The notes under the pieces: model-generated
The model's input: only the letters and a program-made list of their open reading frames with translations
Database searches by the model: none
What the model was told of the DNA's origin: nothing
Translations under genes and position numbers: made by a program
Source: Ashinkailepas kermadecensis
Taxonomy: Eukaryota > Arthropoda > Thecostraca > Neolepadidae
NCBI GenBank assembly: GCA_034440615.1
Contig: JAOTOM010003194.1
Coordinates: 62,001-126,000, forward strand
Direction of reading: 5' to 3'
Length of the DNA stretch: 64,000 nt
Part shown: positions 3,976-62,780 of the stretch, one piece after another
Numbering within the stretch: the first letter of the stretch is position 1
Layout of the letters: each line of letters opens with the position of its first letter

Positions 3976-3984
3976 CGGTCCGCC

Positions 3985-4262
3985 ACGTCAGATCACGTCA
4001 TGTCAGGTCACGTCACGTCAGGTAGCGTCATGCCAGGTCATGTCAGGTCACGTCAGTTTACGTCACGTCATATCACGTTACGTCAGGTCAGGTCACGTCA
4101 CGTCACGCCAGGTCATGCCACGTCATGCCAGGTCGCGTCAGGTAATGTCAGGTCACGTCAGGTCACGTCAGGTCACGTCAGGTCACGTCAGGTCACGTCA
4201 GGTCACGTTAAGTCAGGCCATGTCAGGTCAGGTCACGTCATGTCCGGTCACGTCTTGTCAGG
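3985..4262. repeat. 10-bp GGTCACGTCA minisatellite
   Basis: Some 27 near-perfect decamers, most clearly uninterrupted at about 4150-4210. The unit contains CACGTCA (CRE/E-box-like), but the array is low complexity and a regulatory role is not shown. Confidence 0.9.
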
Positions 4263-7500: not shown

Positions 7501-10411
7501 CACTTTCTTCCCGATGTCCACACTATTGCAATGGAATTGCCGCAGTCTGATCTCCAAATGGGCTGAAATGAAAGTTTGTTTTCAGTATTCTCACACCTAT
7601 TCTCATAGCACTACAAGAAACATGGTTTTTACCGATTGATACATACAACTTTAACCTTTCCAATTATTCACTGTATCGTCACGATGAGGTCCGTGGATCA
7701 CATCGAAGTGGCGGTACAGCACTTTACATAAACAATGATTTCACACATACACAAATTACACTTAATACACAATTACAAGCCGTAGCTTGTACACTACGTT
7801 TACATAGTAGAAATATAGATGTATGTTCCATCTATATTCCACCACAAACCGACAACACAAATATTCTGACACATTTAGAAAATCTTATAGGACATTTCAA
7901 GAACCCTTTCATATTACTCGGAGACTTTAATGCACACAGCCCAGCCTGGGATCAAGCACGTACACAAAGAGACACTCGCGGTCACATCATTGAACAAATT
8001 TTAGACCGGCATAATTTAGTAATACTTAACACCGGAGAGCCAACCTTTTTCACCTTGGACATAATACAGCAACAGCCATTGATTTATCCATTTGTTCCCC
8101 CACCCTGGCAAACGACTTTGATTGGACCATAGAAACCGACATCCACGACAGCGACCACTATCCCATCAAACTGACACCCACTTTTTCAACGGCAACTGAC
8201 ACCACGCCCAGTTTTATTCCCCGCTAGAAGATTTCAAAGGCCGATTGAACAACATTTCAGGAGCTTTCCTATTTGCAGTACAACCCCAACATTTCTCCCG
8301 TCGAAAACATCAACTCAATTACAAATACACTTTTCGAGGCAGCTTCCACGACTATTACACTTACAAAACCATTCACAAGAAGGAAACCAGTACCTTGGTG
8401 GTGTCAAGAAATTTCAAAAGCCATAGCGATAAGAAAAAAAGCATTTATAAATTATCTACGACATCCCAATTAAGAAAATTTATACATACGTAACCGCGAA
8501 CGTGCGAGGACACGCCGCATCATTCGCGATGCGAAGCGACATTCATGGGCCATATATTTACAGCAGCTGACATTTCGAACACCAATGAGTAAAATATGGC
8601 AATTTATCCGACGCTTGTCCGGACGCTCCCCATTTAAATCTCTACCGGCCCTCAAAATCCACAATCTCACCATTACAGACCCACAAACCATAGTAAATAC
8701 CATAGCTGATACCATAGCCCATAATAGCTCCGATGTAAACTACCGACCTAATTTTCTACCAAATGCGCAACAAGCTTTTCACACCAATCTCGAACTCTTC
8801 CAATCAGACAATACCGAGGACTACAATACTTCCTTTCAACTTTTCGAACTGCAGAATGCCATTTCCTCCGCCGGTAACACTTCAGTAGGGCCTGACAAAT
8901 TACATTATTCCTTCTTTCGACATTTATCTGACCACACCAAACAATGCATCTTAGACACATTTAATTCATTATGGGCAAATCACATCTTTCCAGAAACATG
9001 GAAAGAAGCAATCATCATTCCCATTCCAAAACCCGGCAAAGATCACAGTAACCCCAATAATTTTCGACCAATTGCCCTTACTAGTTGCTTGGGGAAACTT
9101 CTGGAAAGAATGATTAGCAAAAGACTGACCTGGCACCTGGGGACACAACTTCTCTTTTATCTCCATTCCAATGTGGTTTTCGTCATGGACGCAGCACAGT
9201 CGATCATCTTATCAGATTAGAAACGGACATCCGCCTAGGCTACAAGAAACATCAACACACTGTCGCAGTATTTTTGGATATCAGTAAAGCTTACGATATG
9301 GTTTTCAAACCAGCACTCCTCTTCAAAATTCAACAACTCGGCATAAAAGGACACTTAGCACATTATTTAATAGGTTTCTTATCTGGTTCGCGTAAATTCA
9401 ACATCAGGTGCCGGTCAGCCATTTCTGATCCTCATTTACTCCAAAACGGCCTACCACAAGGAAGTTGCATTTCACCAGTTTTATTTAACATCATCATTGA
9501 CGACCTTTTCACCGACATGCCTGCAAATATATCGTATTCCCTATTCGCCGACGATAGTGCAATTTGGTGCTCGGACCAAAATTATTAAAATTGTTTGATT
9601 CGGCTTCAAAACGCTCTAAACAGGATACACCAATGGTCCCTGAAGTACGGATTCAATTTTTCTGCCCCCAAATCTGCAACAATGATTTTTAGCAAATGCA
9701 CTCCCTGCCCGAACCCAGATAAACAGCTTCACCTTGGCACGGATAATAGTAAACGGATCGGAAACTCTCGGGCGGCACTTTGATGTTTGCGACCACCGAC
9801 CGATACTAGCGACATCTATCGGACGATCGGATAAATAATCCTGGATAGGTGATGCGAAGGACACCCCATCGAAAAAGCTTGACGGGATGGAGAAATATAG
9901 CTGAATCGGCCTTCTACCACGCGTCGTTTGAAAAAAAAACTGCGCCCTCGGCGCCAGCCGGGGACGCATACTCCAGTAGCCGCCATCCCTTCGGCCGCCG
10001 TATAAAACCATGAAGCTCGTGACCAACTAACCTGTGCCGATTAACTGATGGAAGCGGAGTGTCATGAGAGCCGGCAGAAAAACAAGGGAGAGCACCTGCC
10101 CCCCCCCCACCTCCAATTCCAACCGTATATGCCTGCGACTCGTCTGGGACAGGCCAATTCCATTCCGATGCCCCCCCCCCACACAAAAAGGCTGCTGATT
10201 GGCCAAAGACCGATTGGCTGATTGGCCCTGGCAGTCACATTTCCCCCTGAGGCATATTCTTTGACAAACGAGGGGACCCTGAGCAGGCATAGGAGCACAT
10301 TATGAACATTGATTGGGCCGAGGGGCCCCGGAACAGCCATTGGAGTCCTCTGAGGAACTGTCAGGGGCCTCCTGCATGACCCCATTGCAGCTGCCACGTC
10401 TCCCATGTCAA

Positions 10412-14440: not shown

Positions 14441-14646
14441 CTGTACACAGTCTGCAGCTGGTCCACCTGGCCGGGCTGGCGCACCAGCCGGCGCAGGTGT
14501 GCGAAGCTGGCGGCCGACGGCAGGCCGCACGCGCGCCGCCACACGTTGTAGGCCGGCAGGCCGTGGTCGCGGCCACGCTGCACGTTTATTGCGCCCAGGT
14601 GGAGCCCGACCGGCGCCCCGTCGGCCTCGAACAGGTGCGCCGTAAT
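14441..14646 (-). CDS. peroxidase exon, NVQRGRDHG block
   Basis: The exon opens after CACCAG (phase 0) and closes at TACAG/GTGAGG (phase 2); its 206 bp fits both. It encodes [10 protein letters not shown], then [16 protein letters not shown] and CGLPSAASF. The Asn of the QRGRDHG motif is the family residue that hydrogen-bonds the proximal heme His. Confidence 0.93.
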
Positions 14647-15270
14647 CTGGTGACAGGTGGTACGTGGTCTGCTGACAGGTGGGCCGTGGTCTGTTGACAA
14701 GCGGACCGTGGTCTATTGACAGGTGGTCCGTGGTCTGTTGGCAGGCGGACTGCGGTCTGTTGACAGGCGGACCGAAGTCTGTTGACATGCGGACCGTGGT
14801 CTGTTAACATGCGGACCGTGGTCTGTTGACAGGCGGACCGTGGTCTGTTGACAGATGATCCGTGATCTGTTGACATGTGGAGGTTCTGTTGACAGATGAA
14901 CCGTGGTCTGTTGACAGGTGTGTCGGTTTGTTGAACGGTGGGGCATGGTCTATTGGCAGGTGGTCCGTGGTCTGTTGACAGGCATGCCGTGGTATGTTGA
15001 CATGTGTGTCCTGGTATGTTGACAGGTGTGTCATGGTCTGTTGATAGGTGAGGATGGTCTGTTGACAGGCATGCTGTGGTATGTTGACATGTGTGGCATG
15101 GTATGTTGACAGGCTTGTCGTGGTCTGCTGACATGTGGGTGTGGTCTGTCGCCAGGTGAGTCAGGCTGTGCTGCCAGATGGTTAGCGGTCTGCTGACAGG
15201 TGATCCCTGGTCTGTTGACGCATGGGTTCAGGATAGATTGGCTGTGGTCTGTTGACAGGTGGGCGCGGTC
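14647..15270. repeat. about 22-bp minisatellite abutting a 3' splice site
   Basis: About 27 units of the type GGACCGTGGTCTGTTGACAGGC. On the minus strand each reads CAGACCACGGTCCRCCTGTC. That resembles the adjoining acceptor and exon start (CAG then ATTACGGCGCACCTGTT). The array starts directly at the exon edge and may have grown from it. Confidence 0.9.
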
Positions 15271-32344: not shown

Positions 32345-33345
32345 TCGAGAGCTGCCGGGAGTGTCGCCGCCCCAGCAGCAGAACCTGCCGCTGACCCAGC
32401 AACAAGGACTGCTGCTGCCTGCCCCGCAACATGGCTTGCTGCCGGCCCCGCAGCAAGATCTGCCGCCGGCCCCGCAGCAAGACCTGCCGCCGGCCCCGCA
32501 GCTACTGTCGCTGGCCCCGCAGCAAGACACGCCGTCGGCCTCGTGGCAGGATATGCCGCCGGCCCCGCAGCAAGGACCGCTACCGCCTGCCCCGCTGCAA
32601 GACCTGCCAACGGCTTTGCAGCAAGGACTGCTATTGTGGGTCTCGCAGCACCCGCAGCTAGACTTGCTGCTGGCCCCGAGACAGCACCTGCCACAGACCT
32701 TTCATCAGCACCTGCCGCCCTGTCCCGCAAGAATATTTACAGCCACTGGCTCCGCAGCAAGATCTGTCACCGGTCCGTTAGCACCCACAGCACGGCCTGC
32801 TGCCGTCTGCCCCTCAGCAAGGACTGCTGCCGCTGGCCCCGCAGCACGACCTGCAGCCGGCCTCACGGCAAGGCCTGCCACGCAGCAGACTGCTGACGCC
32901 GGCCCCGCAGCAAGACCTGCAGCCGGCCCTACAGCAAGACCTGCAGCCGGCCCATCAGCAAGGCCTACAGCTGGCCCCGCAACAGAATCTGCCATCGGCC
33001 TTACAGCAAGAACCACTGCCGCGGGTCTCGCAGCACCCGCACCTAGGTACCTGCTGTTGACTCCGCAGCAACACCTGCCACCGATCTGTCAGCAGCACCT
33101 GCCGCCGGTCCCGCAAGAATGTCTACAGCCACTGGCTCCGCAGCAAGATCTGTCGCCAGCTCGGCAGCACCCACAGCACTGCCTGCTGCCGCCTGCCGTG
33201 CTGCCGCCTGCCCTGCAGCAAGGACTGCTGCCGCCAGCCCCGCAGCAAGATTCGCCGCCAGCCCCGCAGCAAGACTCGCCGTCGGCCCCGCAGGAAGATT
33301 CGCCGCCGATCCCGCAGCAAGACTCTCCGTCGGCCCCGCAGTAAG
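32345..33345. repeat. 24-bp GC-rich minisatellite
   Basis: More than thirty imperfect copies of CCGGCCCCGCAGCAAGACCT-type units. All frames stay open because of the repeat: PAPQQDLP repeats in one, Ala/Gly-rich in the others. Two partly homologous blocks (32.4-32.7k and 32.9-33.3k) suggest a larger duplication. I see no sign that it is a gene. Confidence 0.9.
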
Positions 33346-33479
33346 ACCTACCGCTGAACACCCAGCAAAGCCTAGTGTCTTGTGGAGTGGATCGTAGGTC
33401 GTTGTGGAATGACTGTGTGCACGACCAAGGAACAGGGCTCATTACAGTGGTGATCACAGCGAAGCTGATGTGACGCTAT

Positions 33480-43224: not shown

Positions 43225-43914
43225 GAATTTAGCTGAAAATTTGTGGTTGAAGATTGTGATATTGTGGAATCTCTAAGCAAGCAATTCTCATCAGTCTTTA
43301 CTAAAGAGAATTCTGATAGAATAGAAACAACTGAATCGTATGCCATGACAGGTGATAGGCTGGAGTATCTTACAATAACTACAGAAGCTGTAGAAAAGCT
43401 GTTGCAGAATATAAAACCTAATAAAGCTTCTGGACCAGATTATATATATGCTAGGGTTTCAGTAGAGTGTGCTAAAGCTTTAGCAGTTCCCCTAGGTATA
43501 ATTTTCAGGCGGTCTATGGAATATTCTGAAATGCCTGAACATTGGAGAAATGCAAATGTAGTACCAATTTTCAAAAAGGGAAGTATGAAGTGTGTAGGGA
43601 ACTACAGGCCAGTCAGTTTGACCTCAATAGTTTGCAAGGTACTAGAAAATCTGGTTAAGCAGAATGTTCAAATTCATCTTGATAGGCACAATCTTTTAAG
43701 GGATACTCAACATTGATTTCGATCTCTAAGGTCTTGTTTAACTAACCTTTTGGAGTTCATGGAGTATGTTACTAAAGAAGTAGACAATCAAAGTAGGCTA
43801 GATGTTGTGTACTTGGACTTTAGCAAAGCTTTTGATAAAGTTCCACATGGGAGGCTAATTCATCAACTACAGCAACATGGGATTGTTGGAAAAGTTATAG
43901 GTTGGATTGAAGCA
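43225..43914 (+). pseudogene. CR1-like retrotransposon RT, 5' part
   Basis: It encodes IKPNKASGPDYI, VVPIFKKGSMKCVGNYRPVS, and after a stop near 43714 also VYLDFSKAFDKVPHGRL and a GWIEA end. The frame is cut at GWIEA by the 43915-49542 insertion and resumes at AWLRGRKQRV. One internal TGA shows decay. Confidence 0.9.
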
Positions 43915-46249
43915 ACCTTGCCAACCTTGCCTCGGTCGACCAGTTGCCGGTATCTCTCCATCTACCCAACCGTCGGAGGCTCCGGCTGGCGGTATTTCCT
44001 CGGGCTTGGCCAGGCTCCGATCGAGTACAAAGGTTATCGCCCAAATTCCCAAGGCAGCTCGCTCGGTAGTCGCCGACTCGCTGTCCAATCGGCTGAACGA
44101 GGCACTGAACGACCCTACCCCACAATCCTGGTGGATGTTTCTATCATTTGCCTTCACTGCGCTGCGTGCCCCGGACGCCGCAAGGAGCGAGGGACCCCGC
44201 CTCACCGCCGCCTCACACATAAAACGACAGATCGCCGAGATGGACAGCATGGCCACGCAGCCAGCACCCGAGCAGCGGAATGCCGCCACTCAGCGCGTCA
44301 CAACTACCGACTCGATCGCGCGCCGAGTTCGCGCTAAATGTGCAGATGGAGACATCCGCGCGGCCCTCCGTGTCTTAACATCTAGTGACACGTTCGCAGA
44401 GCCGACAGACGAGGTCATTGCCGCCTTACGCTGCAAACACCCGCCAGCACCGGACGACGAGGAACTTCCTCCCCCGCCCACTGTCTCTGACCCGTCACCG
44501 CTAACCGTCACGGAGGAGCAGGTAGAGGACGCCATCTCCACCATGCCACCGGGCTCTTCGGCGGGCCTTGACGGAATACGGCCACTCCACCTGCGTCAGC
44601 TGCTGTCCCGAGAGGCAGCAGAGTCTGGACGTCGCCTCCTCAAATCGCTCACTGCTCTAACTAACCTAGTGTTGGGAGGCTGCGTCCCGGAGTGCGGACG
44701 TGACGCGCTGTTCGGAGCATCGCTTTGTGCGCTACGGAAGAAAGACGACGGACTACGACCAATAGCTGTTGGTAGTGTATACCGCCGTCTGCCTGGGCGC
44801 ATGGGCGCGCGGCATATCTCTAGCCACCTCGGAGCAGAACTCCGCCCCATCCAACTCGGAGTCGGCACGCCGCTGGGGTGCGAGGCCGCCGTGCACGCGG
44901 CTCGCGAATATATCGCGACCACCGTCACCGACTCCTTCAACCCCCATGTCCTGGTCAAGGTGGATGTCAGGAACGCGTTCAACACGGTCCGCCGCGACGT
45001 CATCCTAGCGCGCATACGAGAACGCTGTCCCGAGATCTACCCGATGGCACGTCAAGCCTACGGTGCGCCGACTCTCCTCCACATCGGCGATCAGACGGTG
45101 ATGTCGTGCAGTGGCGTTCAACAAGGCGATCCCCTCGGTCCTGCTGCATTCGCTCTCGCTGTTGATCCCTGTGCTCGGGCCATGCGGTCAGTTCTGAACG
45201 TATGGTACCTCGACGACGCCACGCTCGCCGGCCCGGTAGACACTGTCGTAACTGATCTCCGTTCGCTAGCCTCGGCTCTGCCAGGGATCGGTCTTCAGCT
45301 GAACCCCGCCAAGTGCGAGGTAGCATTTCTTGGCGCCCTATCTTCTTCAGTTCGCGACTCAGCTATGGGTGAAATACGTGACGCACTGCCAGAGATAGTA
45401 GAGACTCCTCTGGACGCCCTCACGCTCCTCGGTTCACCGTTGTGCGACGCCGGACTCACCGCTGCCACCAACATCGCCTCAGAGACCATCGCACGTCTGT
45501 GCGCCCGCCTTCACCAGTTAGACAGCCACACCGCTGTCTTCTTCCTTGTCCACCACGTGTCAGCACCACGTTTGTCATACTTATTGCGCTCAGCACCCCT
45601 GTACAAGGAGCCTGACCCCCTAAGAAAGATCGATGAGCTGGTTCGCGAGACACTGGTAACGGTTTCCAACGTCGATGTCAGTGGTACGGCGTGGAAGCAG
45701 GCAACGCTTCCGCTCAGACTGGGCGGCCTCGGGGTGCGCTCTGTCGAGGCCTTGGCGCTGCCGTGTTACGTGGCCTCACTGAGCGGAGCTCTTCCGCTGG
45801 TCCGCAGTATATGTCCAGGCCTCTCGGACAGCGACGCGCCGTCTTCGCTACAGTCAGCGGTGCAGCGTTTCACGGAGCTGACAGGGGTCAAAGAGCTACC
45901 AGACGCGACATCTGCCAGTAGTCAGCGCGCATGGGACAGCCTGGGCGCCACCGTGATTCGCGACCAGCTGATGGGCGTAGCCAACCAGGTGCACCGCGCG
46001 CGCCTACTCGCTGCCACTCAGCCGCATACCGCCGCCTGGCTGCAAGCTGTCCCTGTGCCCAACCTCGGTCTTCACCTGGACGACGAGACAATCCGTGTGG
46101 CGGTGGCGCTTCGCCTAGGGGCTGCAGTGTGCGAACCACATCGCTGTCGTCAATGCAACCGCCCGGTTAACCGGCTTGGACACCACGGACTATCCTGCCT
46201 CAAGAGCGTTGGCCGTCTCCCACGTCACACACACCTGAATGACTTGTGA
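43915..46249 (+). pseudogene. non-LTR reverse transcriptase with zinc motif, one frameshift at its end
   Basis: The frame opens at the insertion edge with no ATG. It has an IPKAARSVVADSLSNRL region, then an RT: GSSAGLDGIRPLHL (about 44556), RKKDDGLRPIAVGSVY, VKVDVRNAFNTV, GVQQGDPLGPAAFAL, and WYLDDATLAG (about 45200). A thumb follows, then a Cys/His finger CRQCNRPVNRLGHHGLSC at about 46147. It stops at 46247-46249. A one-base shift there would continue directly into the endonuclease frame. Domain order (RT, zinc, restriction-like endonuclease) fits the early-branching, R2-like group of site-preferring non-LTR elements. Clade is not certain. Confidence 0.85.
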
Positions 46250-49200
46250 AACGAGGCCTCTCAAGTGCGGGAATCCCTGCCATCCTGGAGCCGGTGGGTC
46301 TCGACCGGGGCGACGGCAAGCGGCCAGATGGGCTTACGCTGTTCCCATACAGTGGAGGAAGGTGTCTGACATGGGACGTTACTTGTGTAGACACCTTCGC
46401 CGATACCGTACTGGTGCAATCGGCGCTAGAGCCCGGGTCTGCGGCTCGTGCGGCAGAAGCTCGCAAACGCCGCCACTATGCCGACCTCTGCTCGCGGTAC
46501 AGGTTCGAGCCCTTAGCCGTTGAGACAACCGGCGTTCTAGGACCCGCTGTCTCAGAATTTCTGCGGGAGCTCGGGCGTCACATAACGGCCCGCACCGGCG
46601 AACGCCGCGAGACAGCGTGGCTGCGGCAACGCATTTCCGCCGCAATCGCGCGGGGCAACGCGGCTTCTGTGCTCGCCACAGCCCTGCCCACAGACAGATC
46701 TTCGGCTGGCCGCATAGTTGCACCAATTTCGAGAACTGGCTCAGACTCCCGTAAAGCTGTGGTTGAAACGTTTGCCGCGTGTCGCAGCGACAGTCTGATT
46801 GACGACGACGGCGGCGGCGGCGACGGCGACAGAGGTGGTGACAGCGCCAGAGGTGATGGCAGCGGCAGCCGTGGCGGCGGTAGAGGCGGTGACAGCGGCA
46901 GCGGCGGCGGTAACGGCCGCAGAGGTGATGGCAGCGGCAGCAGCGATGGCAGCCGTGGCGGCGGTGGTAGCGGCGGCGACGGAGACGGGAGCGGAGGCAG
47001 AGGAAGTGGCTATGGCGGCAGCAGTGACGGTGACAGTGACTTCGACAGCGGTGGCTACGACAGTGGCAGCGGCGGTGGTGGTGGCGGCAGCAGTGGTAGC
47101 GTCAACCAGCTGCGCGGCCTCATCGAGCTAAGGAACATAGGCAACGCATGCTTTATGAACTCTGTGCCCCAGTGCCAGAGCAACACGCGTGTGCTGCACG
47201 ACTCCTTCCTGTGCGACCAGTACACGTCCGACATCAACATCACAACATCGGCCATGAAGGGAGCACTCGTGAAGTCGTTCGCAACACTCATGCGCGACCT
47301 GTGGCGGCCCTCCGACAAGTTGAACCGGGTGGTCAGCATGACGCCCTCGAAGTCGCAGGACGGTGACGAGGCGACTTGGCGTGGCATCGATCTGCTCTGC
47401 GACCGGCTCCTGCTGTGGCCTTGCTGCACGCAGCTGGCCACGTGGTTCTGCTGCCTGATGAGGAAGCTGGCCTCTCGGAGACACACCGACGACCTCGACC
47501 AGCTCGTGATCGACCGCGTTGATAAGCTGTTCAGGGCGCTTTCTCTGCCGGCCGTTCGCCGCTTTGTCTTCCGAGTGGTTACCCTGATGCTGCTGGGTTC
47601 CCAAAACTCACCTGGAGTCTTCCATAAGGTGCTGCCCCACCTGCCGTCGCTGCTGGACCAGCTGAGACAGGAGGCCAGCCCGCACGGCGACGATTGCGCA
47701 CAGCTGGCCGACGTGGCCTACACACTGATGAGGCTCCACCCGACACTGACCGCACACCATCCGACGCCGGCGCTCTCGCTACAGAGCCGTACCCGACCGT
47801 CCCAGGCCGCATGGTCCCACCCGTCCGGTCCCGGTCCGGGTCCTGACCCCGGCCCCGACATCGACCTCGGCTGTGACGTGAGCCACACCGCCATGTCGTC
47901 GCCACCACCGCCGAGGCGAGGTCTCAAAAACCTCGGCAACACGTGCTATATCAACGTTGTGCTGCAGGCGCTCTTCCACTCAGAACAGTTCCGCTACGGA
48001 GTGATGACGTCACGGCCCAGTCCGTGCCAGCACCACCTGGCGGCACTGCAGCGGGTGTTCGCGTTCCTGGCCTTCTCGGAGCGGCCCGCCTTCTCACCGT
48101 CGGCCTTCACACGCACCGCACTGCCGCCCTGGCTGGAGGCGGGCCGCCAGCAAGACTGCTCGGAGCTGCTCAGGTACCTTTTGGACGCGCTTCACGAAGA
48201 GATGTCCGTGGCTCCACCTGGCGTTGGTCAACCACAGCCGCATACGTCCTCCAAGGCTTCGCAGTCACCGCGGCCTCAACTGGCGCCGTCGCTGGCGGAC
48301 GGTGGTCAGCAGACACGACCTCCGTTTGCCCTACCTGCCGCAACTCGGGACGACAGTGCACTAACGCGCCCGTCCGCCGGCCTCAAATGTCGGCCTCGAT
48401 GGTCGAGCGGCGGCGCAGCCCCGTGTGACGCTCGGCTCGCCGGACAGTGCGGCGCGCTCCAAGCCAACCTCAGCGGGGGTCGTACTTCCCAGGAACCACC
48501 ACCGTCCCGCCGTGGTGGTGATGTCCTGTCCGGCGACTCTCGACAGCCGACGGTCGGCGGCGGTCGTGCCACTGTCCCGCCGCCGCTACCAGCTCCGACT
48601 CTGGTGCAGCGTCTGTTGGCCGGCAGTGCCGAGACGACCTGCACGTGCTGCACGTGCGGCTCTGTGTCGCGCCACCTGGACAGCATCACCGACCTGCACT
48701 TGGCCGTGCCGGACTCTCTGCCGTCTCAACCTCGTGCCGACCTCCAGGTGTCTGATCTGCTAGGGCAGTATCTGGCAGCCGAGCGGCTGTCCGGCGAGAA
48801 CCAATACCACTGTCAGCGGTGCTCTGAACTGCGCGACGCCGACCGACAGCTGCAAATGCTACAGCCGCCGCACTACTTAGTCATCTCGCTGGTGCGCTTC
48901 CTGTTCGAGCGTGGCACGGGCGTGCGCCGCAAGGTGCTGACACCCGTGGCGCTGACGGAGCAGCTGTGGGTGCCGGTGCGCGGCCGGCCGGCCGTCCAGT
49001 TCCGGCTGTATGCACTGGTGGTGCACCGCGGCGGCTCGCTGGACGCCGGCCACTACTACTGCGTGGCGAGGTCATCCGACGCCACCGGCCCGGACGCCGC
49101 GCCGTCCGTCTGGTGCCGCCTCGACGACAACTACGTGACACCGCTGTCGGTCGGTCACCTGGACGCCTGGGGTGGCCGCGGCGGCGCCGGCACGCCAACC

Positions 49201-49455
49201 GACGCGCCCTACATGCTCTTCTATCGGCGGTGCGACGGCGACGCGGCGAGTCCGCCACAGTCGCGGCACGAGCAGCTGCCGGCGTCGCTGTGGCTCGAGG
49301 TACAGAGCGACAACGGCGCGTACCGGCGCGGTAGCCGACCGGCGACCGGTGCCGGCTGGACGGTCGGTGGGCCCCGTGACGGCGACGACCCGCCGCCCCA
49401 GTCGACTGGCTGCGGCGGCGGTCAGAACGCTCCTGCGCCGAACTTCGCGTGCTGA
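46250..49455 (+). CDS. open frame: restriction-like endonuclease fused to USP deubiquitinase
   Basis: One frame of about 1069 codons, uninterrupted to TGA at 49453-49455. Residues 1-160 are a PD-(D/E)XK-type endonuclease (RPDGLTLFPY, TWDVTCVDT, then LRQRISAAIARGNAASVL) that nicks target DNA in such elements. Residues 185-285 are Gly/Asp/Ser-rich from a GGC-type microsatellite. Residues 286-365 are a USP2/8-like N-terminal box with several odd substitutions. Residues 380-555 resemble the USP35/38 helical region. From about 560 comes a full USP core: Cys box NLGNTCYINVVLQALF, QQDCSELLRYLLDALHEE, zinc pairs CTCCTCG and CQRC, His box LDAGHYYCVARS, WCRLDDNYVT and YMLFYRR. USPs remove ubiquitin from proteins. 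All catalytic-type residues are present. It is intronless. Expression as a protein is unknown, since the upstream RT is one frame away. Confidence 0.85.
46800..47100. repeat. GGC/GGT-rich trinucleotide repeat
   Basis: Codons for Gly, Asp, Ser and Arg alternate in about 100 residues. The repeat separates the endonuclease from the USP parts and is in frame with both. Confidence 0.9.
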
Positions 49456-49542
49456 CGCGGCAGGATCGCTACTGGGCGCGACCGCTCGCCGATTGTAATA
49501 CATGGGCTGTTGTTCATATTGTTATACATCACCATTGCAGCC

Positions 49543-50838
49543 ATTGAAGCATGGTTGAGGGGAAGGAAACAAAGGGTAGTGTTAAATGGATGTAAATCTG
49601 ATTGGAAGTATGTTCTGAGTGGAGTACCACAGGGCTCTGTTCTAGAGCCAATTCTCTTTATCACCTTTGTGAATAACATTGAGGTAGGGCTGAGGAATAG
49701 AGTGTTCAAATTTGCGGATGACATCAAGCTGGTAGGGGTGGCAAACAGTTATGATCAATCTAGAAATATTCAACTAGACTTGGAGGATCTAAAAAAGTGG
49801 GCTGATCCATGGCAGATGTCTTTCAACTATGACAAGTGTAAGGTTATGCATCTGGGGTCTGGAGGTCAGATTTTCAGATATACAATGGGAGGGAGGGAAC
49901 TGGATGTTATTGAAGAGGAAAGGGACTTAGGTGTGTTGGTTTCAAAAGACCTTAAAGCAGAAAAGCAATGTAGCTCAGCTAGGAACAGGGCACTCAGAAT
50001 GCTGGGACTCATTAATAGAAGTGTGATGAATAAGAGCAAGGAAGTCATGAAAAAACTGTACTTAGCATACGTGCGACCCCACTTGCAATATTCTGTACAA
50101 GCTTGGAGCCCCTACCTACAAAAAGATAGACAAGTTAGAGAGAGTGCAGCGCAAAGCAACTAGACTCATCAATGGAGTAGGTAACGTGGAATATGGAGAA
50201 AGGCTTGTGGCATTAGATATGTGCTCACTCAAGCATAGGAGATTAAGGGGGGACATGATTTAAATGTACAAAATTGTTAAAGGACTAGATCAGGTCAATT
50301 TAAATGGCGCTCTTCAGTTTAGAGTATCACATAGGGGTCATCAATTCATGTTAGACAAGTTGAGGTGTAGGACAGTTCAGCGACAACAGGTCTTCAGTCA
50401 AAAGGTTGTTGATCAGTGGAATGGGCTGCCTGCTGATGTTGTGGGAAGTTCCTCATTGAATGTATTTAAAAGTATGGTGGATAAATTTTTAGACAGGAAA
50501 ATCTTGTTTTTGAGTTATAATTTGTGATGGATGGGGTGAGATGTATGTTAAGTAAGTGTGCACGGCACAGACCCCTTTAGGCAGGCATGGATGCAGTTTG
50601 GAAATTATTGATAAGGCATTCAATCCACATGTGTTAAGAGAGATCAGGGGAATAGGGCTGGAAAGATAGGGTAGATAGGCATTGATAGGTGTGTGGGATA
50701 TTACAGGACTGGTTCTTCAGGATGTACGATGGTTGGGGAAGGTCTTTTTACCAGGCTTATATTATCTTCCATTTACAGACTTGACTGGATGGGCCCTTGG
50801 GTCTCTTATTAAGTCTAAACGCTTTATAACTTTACATA
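49543..50838 (+). pseudogene. CR1-like retrotransposon RT, 3' part and tail
   Basis: It resumes the frame cut at 43914 with AWLRGRKQRVVLNG, GVPQGSVLEPILFI, KFADDIKLVG, WADPWQMSFNYDKCKVMHLG, ERDLGVLVSKDLK and YVRPHLQYSVQAWSP. Frameshifts near 50110 and 50262 precede a C-terminal RRQQVFSQKVVDQWNGLP-like end stopping at 50525. The 3' UTR ends in a TGGGCCCTTGGGTCTCTTATT motif and a TATGACTT-type repeat. Similar tails lie at 51049-51101 and, inverted, near 59680. Confidence 0.85.
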
Positions 50839-51101: not shown

Positions 51102-51302
51102 GATGATGGTGCCTGTGAAATAACCCAATTAAAGGACAAGTTTAGGAGGAAGGCTGTAGAGGCCGCATTTATCGATACCGAGGATTGCATCAACCGAGGA
51201 TTGTGTGTTTCATCTCCTACTTACTCAGCAGGATGATGTATTAATACTTGATGTATACCCTATACCCTACTTGATGTATTAATTACGAACTGTCCCGCTT
51301 TT

Positions 51303-53530
51303 GTGAAACGTTGCGTAACCCAATTTTGTCATTTTTGTCCACATACTTCTATCCGTGCCTTGATCAGTGTACCTCGCTTTCGCCCGCGCCGATCAGCTGT
51401 TCGGTCTCGCTGTCTCCACCGGGTCGACCAAGCTGCACTTCATGCTCACCTTATTAATGCTGACTGGTATAATGTGTTTTCATCACCGACTGCCACTCAG
51501 AAGTGGGACTGTTTTATCAGTGTATTTCCACCGATTTTTGACGCACAGGCCCCGGTCAGAGCCGTGTCCATTAGCAATCCCAGCGCCCCTCCAGTCACCG
51601 ACCCCACCAAAGATCTAATGTCTCGCCGTCGCGTGGCGTTGGCTGAACACGGTCACAGGTCACCAGAATATGTCGTCACAAACAGAGCGGTACGGTCCGC
51701 CATACGCTGTACACCCGCAATGACATTAAGCGGCGCATCCAGGAGGACGGACGTCGATCGATGTGGCAGCACATCAGATCCACCGTCAGTGGTGGGAAGC
51801 CCGTCCGTAAGGTGCGCGACGCCACACCCGATGAACTGAACAATTATTTCGTTGGCATTAGTCCGCGTGTTACGAATGAGGTGAGAGAGTTGGGAGAGAT
51901 GCCAGAACCAGCATGCCGTCTACCACATGTTGGCGCCTGTACGTTTTGTGTGGCACCTCTGACGTTGTCAGAGCTGAGGACCGTCATTCTGGGGATGAGT
52001 GGCTCGTCGGCTTGCGGCGAGGACGGGGTCAGCATACACATGGTGCGCCTGGCTTTGACGCGATCGGCACGGTACTCCTGCATTTGGTCAACTCCAGCAT
52101 TTCCTTTTCTGATGTTCCTCGATCCTGAAAGCACTCCCTCGTTCAACCTATCTTTAAGTCGGGCGATCCTACCAGCCCTCCCAACTACCGTCCTATTTCC
52201 ATAGTTCCTGTCATTGCCAAAATTGTAGAGCGTGCCATTCACCAGCAGCTCTAAAATTACATGTCCCAAAACCACCTCCTGTCCTCAGCCCAGCACGGTT
52301 TCCGTCCACGCCACTCGATAGAAACCGCGCTGACTTCCATGTCCGATCATATCCTATCCGCCAATGACCGAGGTGAGTTATCCCTTCTTTGCCTGCTGGA
52401 TTTGAGCAAATGCTTTGATGTGATTGATCACTCAGGGCTCTTGACTAAATTAAGCATCCACGGTATCGACACTTCTTGGTTCTCTGCATACCTTTGCGAT
52501 CATACCCAGAGTGTCAGCCTCACTGACAATCTGGGCAATCTCAAAAAGTATACTCCGCTTCCCAACGGCATTGGTGTCTTTCAGGGATCTGCTCTCGGCC
52601 CGCTCCTCTACTGCATCTTCGCCAACGACCTCAGTCTGTTCGTTGAAGGTGCAGTGGTAGTCCAATATGCGGACGACACCCAAATTTTGGTTAGTGGTAA
52701 GATATCGGAATTTCGAAACATCGTCACGAGGATGGAATATGTTTTGGCTTCTCTTGACTCTTGGTTTCGTGCAAACGGCCTCAGAGTAAATGCCGGAAAG
52801 ACTCAACTGATGCTGCTGGGAAGTCAGAAAAAAATTTGCGCCACCCCCCCCCGAAATTACCGTAAAAATTCGCGATCACGATCTAACTCCCATCTCGGAA
52901 GCTAAAAATACCGGATTAATCTTTGACCGTTCTCTCAGCTGGGACTCCCAAGTCTCCACCAGCACTAGGCGCTGCTTCGGTACTTTGAGTGGTCTGTCGC
53001 ATCTGAGGAGTTACATGCCGTTCGCTGTCATCTCCGCTTTAGTCAATGCCTTGGTACTCTCGCATATCCAGTATTGTATTTCGGTGTACGGTGATGGAAC
53101 GCAAAATAATCTGTCTCGCATACAAAACATTATTAACTATACAGCAAAGTAATTTTCGGCCGCAGAAAAAAATTGATCATGTATCGGATCTGCTGGAGAA
53201 ATTGGGCTGGCTGAGCGCGCGGGACCTCGTTCAGTACCACACGCTGACCTTGCTGCGCAAGGTGCGTCGCCTGGGTGAACTAGTCACTAGCCTGTGAATT
53301 TGTTCTCCAGACACGTGACAGGACCACCCGGCAAGACAGCGATCTGCACGTGCCCAGATCGCCATGTCGACCAGATGATCAGATCGACATGGGCAAGCGA
53401 CGTTTTTGTAGTCGCGCGGCTAGACAATACAATGCCTTGCAGCCCGATCTGACGCGGCTACCTATCCCCCTGTTTGGACCGCACCTGAAGCGTCACCTGC
53501 GTAGGAACCCGGACTGTGGAGGCACTTAGC
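51303..53530 (+). pseudogene. second non-LTR retrotransposon RT (L2/Crack-like), decayed
   Basis: Pieces in three frames read in order. NRAVRSAI and MWQHIRSTVSGGKPV come first, then TPDELNNYFVGIS (about 51825), SACGEDGVSIHMVRLAL, and SSAQHGFRPRHSIETAL (52282). LLCLLDLSKCFDVIDH, FQGSALGPLLYCIFANDL and VQYADDTQILVSG (about 52660) follow, then VLESLGWL-like and LYHTL-like ends near 53190. Several frameshifts and a TAA at 52254 show it is dead. Clade assignment is by general resemblance only. Confidence 0.8.
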
Positions 53531-60064: not shown

Positions 60065-61400
60065 GGTGTAAAACTTGAAATGTATAGAATGTGGACAGAA
60101 TACAATTCAAGAATAATTCCTTTAAAAAATAATAATAAGGTCGAAAAGGATGCAAGTTGGAAAGGTTAAAAGATGAAATGAGTACAAGTAAAATATGAAG
60201 AAAATTGAAAAGAATAAAATTAGAAAGATTAAAATTTGAAAAGAATAAAAGTAAAAAGGAAAGAAGGTGAAAAGTATGAAAGTTGGAAATAATACAAGTT
60301 GAAAACAATAAAAGCCACAAAGAATAAAATCTGCAAAGAATGAAAGCTTCATGGAATAAAAGCCACAAGGAATAAAAGCTGCAAGGAATAAAAGCCACAA
60401 AGAATAAAAGCCACAAAGAATAAAAGCCACAAGGAATAAAAGCCACAAAGAATAAAAGCTGCAAAGAATAAAAGCTGCAAAGAATAAAAGCGCAAAGAAT
60501 AAAAGCAGCAAAGAATAAAAGTCGCAAAGAATAAAAGCGACAAAGAATAGAAGCCGCAAAGAATAAAAAGCCGCAAAGAATAAAAGCCGCAAATAATCAA
60601 AGCCACAAAGAATAAATGCCGCAAAGAATAAAAGCCGCAAGGAATAAAAGCCACAAAGAATAAAAGCGACAGAGAATAAAAGCCGCAAAGAATAAAAGCC
60701 ACAAAGAATAAAAGCCACAAGGAATAAAAGCTGCAGAGAATAAAAGCAGCAAAGAATAAAAGTCGCAAAGAATAAAAGCGCCAAAGAATAAAAGCCACAA
60801 AGAATAAAAGCCACAAAGAATAAAAGCCGCAAAGAATAAAAGCGACAGAGAATAAAAGCTGCAAAGAATAAAAGCCGCAAAGAATAAAAGCCGCAAAGAA
60901 TAAAAGCCGCAAAGAATAAAAGCCGCAAAGAATAAAAGCTGCAAAGAATAAAGCTGCAAAGAAAAGAGCCACAAAGAATAAAGCCACACAGTATAAAAGC
61001 CAACAAGAATAAAAGCAGACAAGAATGAAAGCCAAAAAGAATAAAACCCAAAAAGAATAAAACCCAAAAAGAATAAAAGTCAAGGAAAATAAAAATTGAG
61101 AAGAATAAAAGTCTAAAAGAAGAACAGTTGAAAAGAATCAAAGTCGAAAAGAGTGAAAAGGATAAAAGTGAAAAGGGCAAAAGTAAAACAAATATGAAAA
61201 GCATAAGTCAAAAGAATTAGTAAAATGTATAAGTGAAAAGCATAAGTCAAAAGCATCAGTCAAAATAAGAAATGAAAAGAATACTTCAAAAGAATAAGTC
61301 AAAAGAATAGAAGTAAAAAAATACAAGTGAAAAGAACACGAGTTGAAAGAATGCAAGCCAAAAGAACAAGTTGGAAGAATAAAAGTCGGGAGAATAGATG
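60065..61400. repeat. 16-bp AAAGAATAAAAGCCGC satellite
   Basis: Some 60 units; the cleanest are at about 60360-60960 with GCCGCAAAGAATAAAA. All six frames are affected; the long minus-strand Phe/Leu-rich frames are by-products. Confidence 0.92.
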
Positions 61401-61404
61401 AAAA

Positions 61405-62780
61405 TATTCCAATTTTGACATACCTAGTACCTATCACCAACGATATCATCAGCTATATTGCCAAATTACCCACCTGAAATGTCCAAATGTAGGTAGGTAC
61501 CCCACACACTTCCTATCCCTACTTCCATTTTATGTTATTACATGCTGTTGCCGTACTTTACTGCCATGAACACAAGGACATTTCAACAGATATAGGTACA
61601 TAAAAAGCAATTACGCGCAATTATTTTCATTTCGAACTCAGTGCCCTGGATTCACCGTCAAATCAGCATGCTACTAACATTACCTGACGCGTAAGCTACT
61701 TCAGTGATGGCCGAACAAAAAAGTGATGGCGATATCAATCGTAAGTTTTATTTTGGAAACACCCACTTTTTAAACCATTAAAGTTTAAATCATTAAGCAT
61801 TAGTTCGAAGTTTTGATATTTACTGATCAATTTGGACTTAAGATCAATTCGGAATAATACAACCCTGAACTAATTTAGAGTCATATTAATGAACTTCGAT
61901 GTTAGCAGCAAGAATCCTGTCACCACTATTTCCACCAGAACGAAAACTTACACACGTATGACCGATTTCGAGTTCACACAAATTCACACACACACACCAC
62001 AAATATTATGTTTTCATGACAATTGAGGTCCATCATAAAACTTCATCAGCTGACTGAGAAAGGTCTAAATGTGAGTTCTGATTGGTCAAAATACCGAGGT
62101 CCAGCGATCGGGCCTCGGTATACACCACCGGACCTCGGTATTCCGTTGTGTAAACTCATTTTGTCCTCGGTAGTCACGGCTCACAAGTGCACACACACTA
62201 TTTTCGTCCTCGGGGTCTATATCTACAATATCCAGTAATGTAATGAGCCCAATATCTAGTATTTCAGACTGTCCACCGACCCTTAGCGGTTGCCTGAGGC
62301 TACAGTCTGGGCCCGCCAGCTGCTAGCGGCTAGCTGTGGTTGTATTCATTTAATGTTCCAACATGTCAATTTGCGCCCAATGTAACCCACCGAGAAGTTG
62401 TTGAAATCGGGGCGAAGTGGCCAAGGTGGGTGGGTGGTGGTTTAGCTTCTCGCTTCTCCACAAACAACAAGAACAGACACGGTCAGCGCGGTAGGCAAGC
62501 TCCCCGCCCCAACTGGCCCCTGGATTGTCCCTCATCAGTCAACACGTGACTTCACCAGATTCAACAGCGCACTAGGCAGTAAGTCCCCATGTACATTTTT
62601 AGCACCACATGCTGCAATGCACTCAAAAGCGATACTTACAATGATCAAAGCAGGTTTCCCCAGAACGAATCAGTACACCAGACGTTCACATCGTTGTGAT
62701 GAAACGAACGTCTGGTGTCACGAACCTCCTCTGGTTCTGACCGAAAGACATAAATGATGTTATATCGGTCACTCATTCAA
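61405..62780. other. non-coding stretch with two inverted-repeat motifs
   Basis: No gene recognised. ATACCGAGG and CCTCGGTAT pair near 62090-62125, and a third CCTCGGTAT follows at 62144. A perfect 13-bp hairpin is at 62675-62718. Confidence 0.5.
62675..62718. repeat. perfect 13-bp inverted repeat
   Basis: ACACCAGACGTTC and GAACGTCTGGTGT are separated by 18 bp. The stem could form a hairpin. No terminator-like T run follows. Confidence 0.85.

Follow-up and report, generated by a model that had tools for sequence, protein, structure and literature searches.

What use a retrotransposon could make of a deubiquitinase, and how it could come by one, is the question raised by a locus in the thecostracan Ashinkailepas kermadecensis (assembly GCA_034440615.1, contig JAOTOM010003194.1). 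The stretch analysed, referred to below as the window, comprises 64,000 nucleotides (positions 62,001 to 126,000 of the forward strand), and at 43915-49542 of it an earlier note, made from the letters alone, had described a non-long-terminal-repeat (non-LTR) retrotransposon unit with a captured USP domain. The reading regarded here as rather probable is that the locus is one copy of a many-copy non-LTR retrotransposon of the restriction-like endonuclease (RLE) group, the open frame of which ends in an intronless host USP35/38 sequence likely gained by splicing, and that this USP is predicted to deubiquitinate the reverse transcriptase (RT) protein of the element in cis, sparing it destruction. 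The non-LTR element with a USP is thus real, but it is not the lone unit of the earlier description: a broader set of RLE elements carries USPs of several classes, and the window family belongs to it.

The 9-bp word ATTGAAGCA occurs just twice in the window, at the two borders of the inserted copy (Table 1). Taken alone this duplication is weak evidence, as at least two such words were present in 21 of 100 shuffles. However, when the flanks were joined at the duplication (184 nt), the resulting sequence was 98-99% identical to all 40 of the CR1-like copies that were scored among 2068 genomic candidates, 39 of them aligning over the full length and one up to base 183. This match to CR1-like paralogues is strong independent support, and the insertion is called clean because the CR1-like repeat reads on across the joined flanks. 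The proposal that the block splits a CR1-like RT whose halves rejoin therefore stands, as does the proposal that one duplication encloses the RT, the endonuclease, a Gly-rich run and the USP in a single orientation, since the RVT_1, UCH and Usp38-like_N domains all lie on the + strand within it.

A search of the 907.7-Mb genome with the RLE-USP junction (46700-47500) gave 41 matches at 40 places, the window included, with 93-100% identity save for one fragment of 88%; as 40 of 307 candidates were scored, the count is a lower bound. The earlier note had allowed that other copies might end before the Gly-rich run and that USP sequence might be confined to this locus; instead, all 20 copies fetched (10 kb each) match past the USP end. 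The idea of an assembly chimera, or of two insertions lying side by side, draws on the unusual combination of domains and on nothing else, and since the junction recurs at 40 places, spread over many contigs, and every fetched copy matches through the USP, it can practically be dismissed. Ten of the 20 fetched copies are truncated at the 5' side, at ten distinct points (element positions 608 to 2816), and eight others begin at a common 5' point, roughly 1 kb further upstream than the 5' end of the window copy. Direct repeats of at least 9 nt (9-12 nt) flank 11 of 21 copies, as against 30 of 420 mismatched flank pairs; the other ten copies show no flanking repeat of that length, the 3' end points are scattered over tens of bases, and in L009 the longest repeat falls within the tail, perhaps fortuitously, a second one being found at the boundary. 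Flanks and duplications differ from copy to copy; the flanks are unrelated, and no single target is seen. In three copies (L020, L022 and L024) a single uninterrupted frame of 2027, 2029 and 2027 aa, respectively, runs through a PHD finger (6.6e-6, Pfam), the RT, a CCHC knuckle, an R2-like RLE, a Gly-rich run and the USP. The element is an RLE-type non-LTR retrotransposon: it has an RT with the knuckle and RLE downstream of it, and the hallmarks of target-primed insertion, namely variable 5' truncation, a shared 3' region and target-site duplications. As separate observations, the 3' flank of copy L013 also lies within a CR1-like repeat, at a different place than the window insertion and with the duplication AGGAAAATC, and copies L011 and L025 have well over 100 nt in common beyond the usual 3' tail, which 3' transduction or local duplication may explain.

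The source of the USP was found in the same genome. By use of the N-terminal part of the Amphibalanus amphitrite USP35-like protein P0001, a part that is absent from the element, a spliced host USP35/38 gene, such as the earlier note had suggested looking for, was located on contig C2072, of which 23 kb (C2072:43001-66000) were read. Seven host exons, numbered among the coding exons matched by P0001 only, correspond to the element with 73-89% amino acid and 87-93% DNA identity, and the six introns between them are absent from the element. The match reaches the same stop codon and continues for about 118 nt into the 3' untranslated region (UTR), in agreement with the earlier proposal that USP mRNA sequence was captured at the 3' side of the element. 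In the UCH tree, which retains the 49 of 60 rows that cover more than 60% of the columns, the window USP and the host USP35/38 are sisters with support of 1.00, and by its PDB match the window USP is nearest to USP35 (5txk, 3.5e-58). P0001 shares 47-55% identity with the element copies across its part 244-710; because of this and of the sister relationship, the capture probably took place in the host lineage after its split from Amphibalanus. A processed pseudogene, that is, a dead and separate insertion of host mRNA, was considered and rejected, since the sequence moves within a multicopy unit and stays in one open frame in three copies. Partial duplicates of the host exon 9252-9409 (L040 9074-9134 and 9430-9493, on C2072) adjoin that exon.

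The join itself bears on the route of capture. The USP sequence of the element is composite: what is left of a USP2/15-like N-terminal box precedes the USP35/38 part. On the element side, AAGTCGCAG stands directly before GACGGTGAC / GACGGTGACGAGG, and on the host side the intron end TTCCCAG is followed by the exon start GACGGTGAC / GACGGTGACGAGG, the join being in phase 0 on both sides. The end of the preceding host exon is missing from the element, and the stretch before the join gave nothing above chance words of 9-11 nt when compared with the host gene. Instead, the roughly 80 residues upstream of the captured part are the USP2-like box, which aligns with P0032, P0041 and P0048, element proteins that carry a USP2-like USP. 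At the corresponding spot, five USP2-like loci of the same genome (L043-L047, chosen from the USP2-like genome matches, several with internal stop codons) read TCGCAG|GTGCAG in four cases and TCGCAG|GTGAAG in one; a match to the RLE part lies near the USP2-like locus on C2601 and C2253, and none is listed for C2929, C4628 and C4607. The exact join string is present in the window and in 27 of 28 distinct loci (L009-L036), the remaining one, L036, not showing it. Splicing of an element transcript into a USP35/38 exon is therefore the likely route of exon capture, as the join falls at the exact start of a host exon and at the CAG|GT donor of USP2-like relatives.

Of the two routes in the earlier note, capture of a USP message at the 3' side stands, and template jumping fits worse than splicing. 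In a jump, the RT would start on a spliced USP35/38 mRNA and switch to element RNA inside the USP2-like part. Such 5' jumps are known for non-LTR enzymes, and a jump from host mRNA would equally give a spliced captured part with the host 3' UTR; even so, it would have to coincide exactly with a host exon boundary, which by rough estimate a random jump would hit in about 1 of 100 cases, and with the CAG|GT of the relatives, in less than 1 of 100, so that template jumping is considered improbable. In the splicing route, an ancestral copy would have lain in sense orientation upstream of the captured exon, probably in the preceding intron, and its USP2-like coding sequence would have supplied the CAG|GT donor. 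The chimeric message, ending at the host 3' UTR and in frame across the phase 0 join, could then have been translated and retrotransposed to give rise to a new master element.

Whether the captured enzyme has been kept intact was judged from aligned copies. All 29 rows have the catalytic Cys and His as well as Asp962, and 27 have Asp961; the fold of the UCH domain matches USP35 (E 1.2e-33). By sequence, tree position, catalytic residues and fold, the enzyme is of USP35/38 type and is predicted to be a deubiquitinase. Between the consensus rows of subfamilies A and C, which were delimited visually on the basis of percent identity (19 rows in A, 8 in B and 2 in C), the ratio of nonsynonymous to synonymous substitution rates (dN/dS) amounts to 0.14 in the RLE, 0.33 in the UCH region and 0.40 in the whole USP35/38 part, and the departure from neutrality has p values of 3.8e-5 for the RLE and 5.7e-5 for the UCH region. 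In the USP2 box, the ratio is 1.98 (A vs C, about 11 changes), that is, no constraint is visible. Because the UCH ratio departs from neutrality, the captured catalytic region is taken to be under constraint.

Furthermore, the window family does not stand alone. Among the 143 proteins fetched from the first two protein searches, 124 hold an RLE, and 39 of these have a UCH domain. Those 39 are found among the 44 RLE proteins with at least 150 residues after the RLE; in the other five, no Pfam domain was found in the long C-terminal extension. The nearest named proteins to the element are from A. amphitrite. Many of the RLE proteins derive from metagenome contigs and may be chimeric or incomplete, and those of A. 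amphitrite are known here from protein annotation only. By their PDB matches, the cargoes resemble USP2 in P0032 (3.2e-109), USP8 in P0039 (2e-90), USP30 in P0073 (4.5e-48) and USP35 in the window, P0031 lies between USP15 and USP8, and the match of P0097 is weak; USP8 and USP30 are names taken from these matches, host references standing in the UCH tree for the USP35/38 and USP2 parts only. Element USPs occupy about six places in that tree, and the USP2-class cargo groups with the A. amphitrite USP2-like protein P0145 at 100/100, P0032 being 87% identical to it.

The USP classes conflict with the RT-RLE tree. This tree holds 65 of 121 rows (30 with a USP class and 35 of the 91 without one; P0004, P0043 and P0097 had too little RT-RLE length), and the partial rows P0014, P0019 and P0105 (USP35/38), P0051 and P0087 (USP2), P0059 and P0055 were classed by box motif or pairwise similarity rather than by tree. 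It requires at least 17 changes of USP class among the classed rows. With rows lacking a USP treated as a group of their own, 26 changes are required against a shuffled mean of 28.6, and a number as low occurred in 8 of 200 shuffles, so that the label is only weakly clustered. A single origin was rejected for three USP classes, those with a completed approximately unbiased (AU) test (p 3.6e-6, 1.8e-4 and 9.8e-5). The balance tips slightly towards the view that RLE retrotransposons of barnacles and their marine kin use host deubiquitinase genes as exchangeable cassettes: they would land in or near USP genes, take up exons by splicing, replace the old USP and swap cargoes among RT lineages, with at least five USP classes taken (USP2, USP8, USP30, USP35/38 and others).

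As further features of the group, zf-C4 (3.4e-8) in P0107 and SAP (4.9e-6) in P0132 are other N-terminal domains of DNA-binding type. Four proteins with long C-terminal tails and no UCH domain (P0061, P0076, P0083 and P0122) share a motif like DPLDDPELARYL, and P0061 also has a segment similar to the USP35/38 linker that is not followed by a UCH domain.

A USP acquired in frame by chance through 3' transduction could also be passive cargo of no benefit to the element. The older USP2 box, a remnant with the dN/dS given above, indicates that USP sequence can decay in these elements, and the linker-like stretch retained by P0061 points the same way. With the catalytic region constrained, 39 of 44 long C-terminal extensions being USPs and several USP classes represented, passive carriage nevertheless seems very improbable.

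If the enzyme is of benefit, its substrate has to be considered. For a deubiquitinase joined to the RT-RLE protein, the simplest substrate would be that protein itself. USP2, USP8, USP30 and USP35/38 differ in their normal substrates. As one enzyme class with such differing substrates recurs among these elements, a benefit that acts in cis and does not depend on any single host substrate is favoured and is predicted for the family, and attachment of a deubiquitinase to the protein of the element itself is the predicted common feature of the USP2-, USP8-, USP30- and USP35/38-carrying elements. Alternatively, the USP might act in trans on host chromatin, DNA-repair or defence proteins, be it in the cytoplasm or where the element inserts. 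The host substrates of USPs are numerous, and the PHD finger could bring the protein to chromatin; given the differing normal substrates of the captured classes, however, a common host target is harder to see, and action in trans is regarded as doubtful.

Several observations weigh against the proposed capture by splicing and the proposed action in cis. Among 14 further USP35/38-like proteins, similarity to P0001 starts at 395-398, adjoining the homologous exon start, in five (P0003, P0009, P0010, P0014 and P0019; the RLE in P0009 is not shown), and elsewhere (391 to 444), at no clear exon start, in the other nine, the linker compared being information-poor. The case for splicing is thus good in the window family, and for the remaining carriers of USP35/38 cargo it is no more than a possibility; in P0005, P0007, P0008 and P0011, an EINLGNSCY box directly precedes the USP35/38 domain and by eye looks like a leftover similar to that of the window. 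The parent insertion is unseen, since comparison of the L024 element with the 23 kb of the host gene (blastn, C2072:43001-66000) gave no element copy there, just the captured exons and partial exon copies. The USP is not required by the RLE group as a whole, because RLE proteins without one are common, 72 of 124 extending no more than 60 residues past the RLE, in some cases perhaps because the contig ends. In addition, Asp961 is Ala in one of the 29 rows and a gap in another, the C consensus behind the dN/dS values derives from two loci, and an in-frame capture with some indirect benefit would leave the same constraint.

The window copy is itself defective (Table 1). It lacks about 1 kb of the family 5' end, and its 3' end comes early, the family continuing for about 30-170 nt further, with ATT common to the target at the end point. 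The frames 43901-46249 and 46243-49455 overlap out of register near 46243-46249, and therefore the copy is broken between the RT and RLE; a domain search of the second frame gave UCH (2.7e-46) and Usp38-like_N (4.7e-16). For the knuckles of RLE long interspersed nuclear elements, the spacing CX2-3CX7-8HX4C is given in PMC5678591.

Table 1. Positions in the window of the inserted element, its parts and its target.
Feature	Position	Strand	Basis or remark
5' half of CR1-like target repeat	43237..43914	+	frames; joined-flank match
Left copy of 9-bp target-site duplication, ATTGAAGCA	43906..43914	+	word search; joined flanks match CR1-like paralogues
Inserted retrotransposon copy, both ends truncated relative to the family	43915..49542	+	comparison with fetched copies
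Open frame (stop to stop, first codons in target): remaining N-terminal part, RT, knuckle	43901..46249	+	RVT_1 1.7e-14
RVT_1 domain, catalytic box YLDD	44735..45325	+	frame residues 279-475; best PDB matches are R2 proteins
CCHC zinc knuckle, C-x2-C-x8-H-x4-C	46145..46198	+	read from frame translation
Restriction-like endonuclease, RPDG..WD core	46243..46797	+	
Gly/Ser/Asp-rich linker	46798..47103	+	
Remnant of USP2-like N-terminal box, cut after CAG	47104..47358	+	CAG|GT in five USP2-like loci of same genome
Seven captured exons of host USP35/38 (matched coding exon 5 to the last), intronless, with host stop codon	47359..49455	+	
UCH (USP) catalytic domain	47917..49224	+	Cys 47944-47946, His 49051-49053, Asp 49123-49128
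Captured host USP35/38 3' UTR	49456..49542	+	homology with host unbroken past stop codon
Right copy of 9-bp target-site duplication, ATTGAAGCA	49543..49551	+	word search; joined flanks
3' half of CR1-like target repeat	49543..50527	+	RVT_1 1.4e-12; joined-flank match

Elsewhere in the window, further RT-like open frames (51252-53152, + strand, with motifs such as LLCLLDLSKCFD and QYADDTQ) probably belong to a second, unrelated non-LTR element just downstream. A long A-rich array with 13-, 16- and 32-bp units (GAATAAAA-like) and strong AT skew occupies 60143-61309, and tandem arrays with 22/44/66-bp, 10-bp and 24-bp units lie at 14631-15219, 3984-4262 and 32365-33368. An Rfam scan of the window at gathering thresholds returned 0 matches, and a tRNA scan with ARAGORN listed none.

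Among known systems, R2 is nearest to the element in solved structure for RT and RLE, both by sequence (best PDB match 3.4e-8) and by fold; the window family differs from it in having no single target, in adding a PHD finger and a USP, and in its duplications of 9-12 bp. According to PMC4640811, CRE, R2, R4 and NeSL, which make up four of the five RLE clades, insert mostly at specific targets. In contrast, no site specificity was seen in the window family, as the flanks and duplications of its copies differ. The same source (PMC4640811) describes an Ulp1-like cysteine protease in some members of the NeSL and Utopia elements of the RLE group. These elements resemble the window family in that a single protein combines RT, zinc finger and RLE and has zinc fingers at its N-terminal side, and in that some of them encode a cysteine protease belonging to the ubiquitin-like system. 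They differ in their target specificity, window-family copies lying in unrelated flanks, and in the protease, which is Ulp1-like and N-terminal in theirs, whereas that of the window family is a USP, is C-terminal and can be traced to one host gene together with its 3' UTR. A Pfam search found no Ulp1-like domain in the N-terminal part of the window family, where the PHD finger lies, the UCH domain being C-terminal. A C-terminal USP from a known host gene is a cargo different from that of NeSL/Utopia, the nearest precedent.

A deubiquitinase-type cysteine protease is also present in OTU-bearing non-LTR elements, but the OTU and USP families are unrelated. In exon capture by SVA and L1, a chimeric RNA arising from splicing or read-through is retrotransposed and the captured exon is usually cargo, whereas in the window family a whole catalytic domain joined the element's own protein. 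In the open-access literature, a scope outside which bioRxiv and most subscription journals lie, no report of a USP in a retrotransposon was found among the titles and opening lines of abstracts that were listed. The A. amphitrite RLE proteins labelled in databases as SLACS protein, USP2, USP8, USP37 or USP38 (P0103, P0032, P0043, P0097 and P0008) belong to the same RT-RLE family (56-77% RLE identity), with a UCH domain in four of the five. Their names follow the cargo as for ordinary genes, so that the fusion, the copies and the origin are absent from the names; SLACS is the database name of P0103 only.

Proteases of ubiquitin-like systems have been noted in non-LTR elements. In the present family, the cargo is traced to one host gene, was probably gained in a single splice event and has since been under constraint, and the same class of enzyme recurs in related elements. 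The reason why elements carry such proteases thereby becomes directly testable, and the splicing of an element transcript into a host exon is a likely route of exon capture by which retrotransposons gain new protein domains. If host deubiquitinase genes are indeed used as exchangeable cassettes, host ubiquitination would be a main brake on these elements, and removal of ubiquitin in cis would be their standing answer to it.

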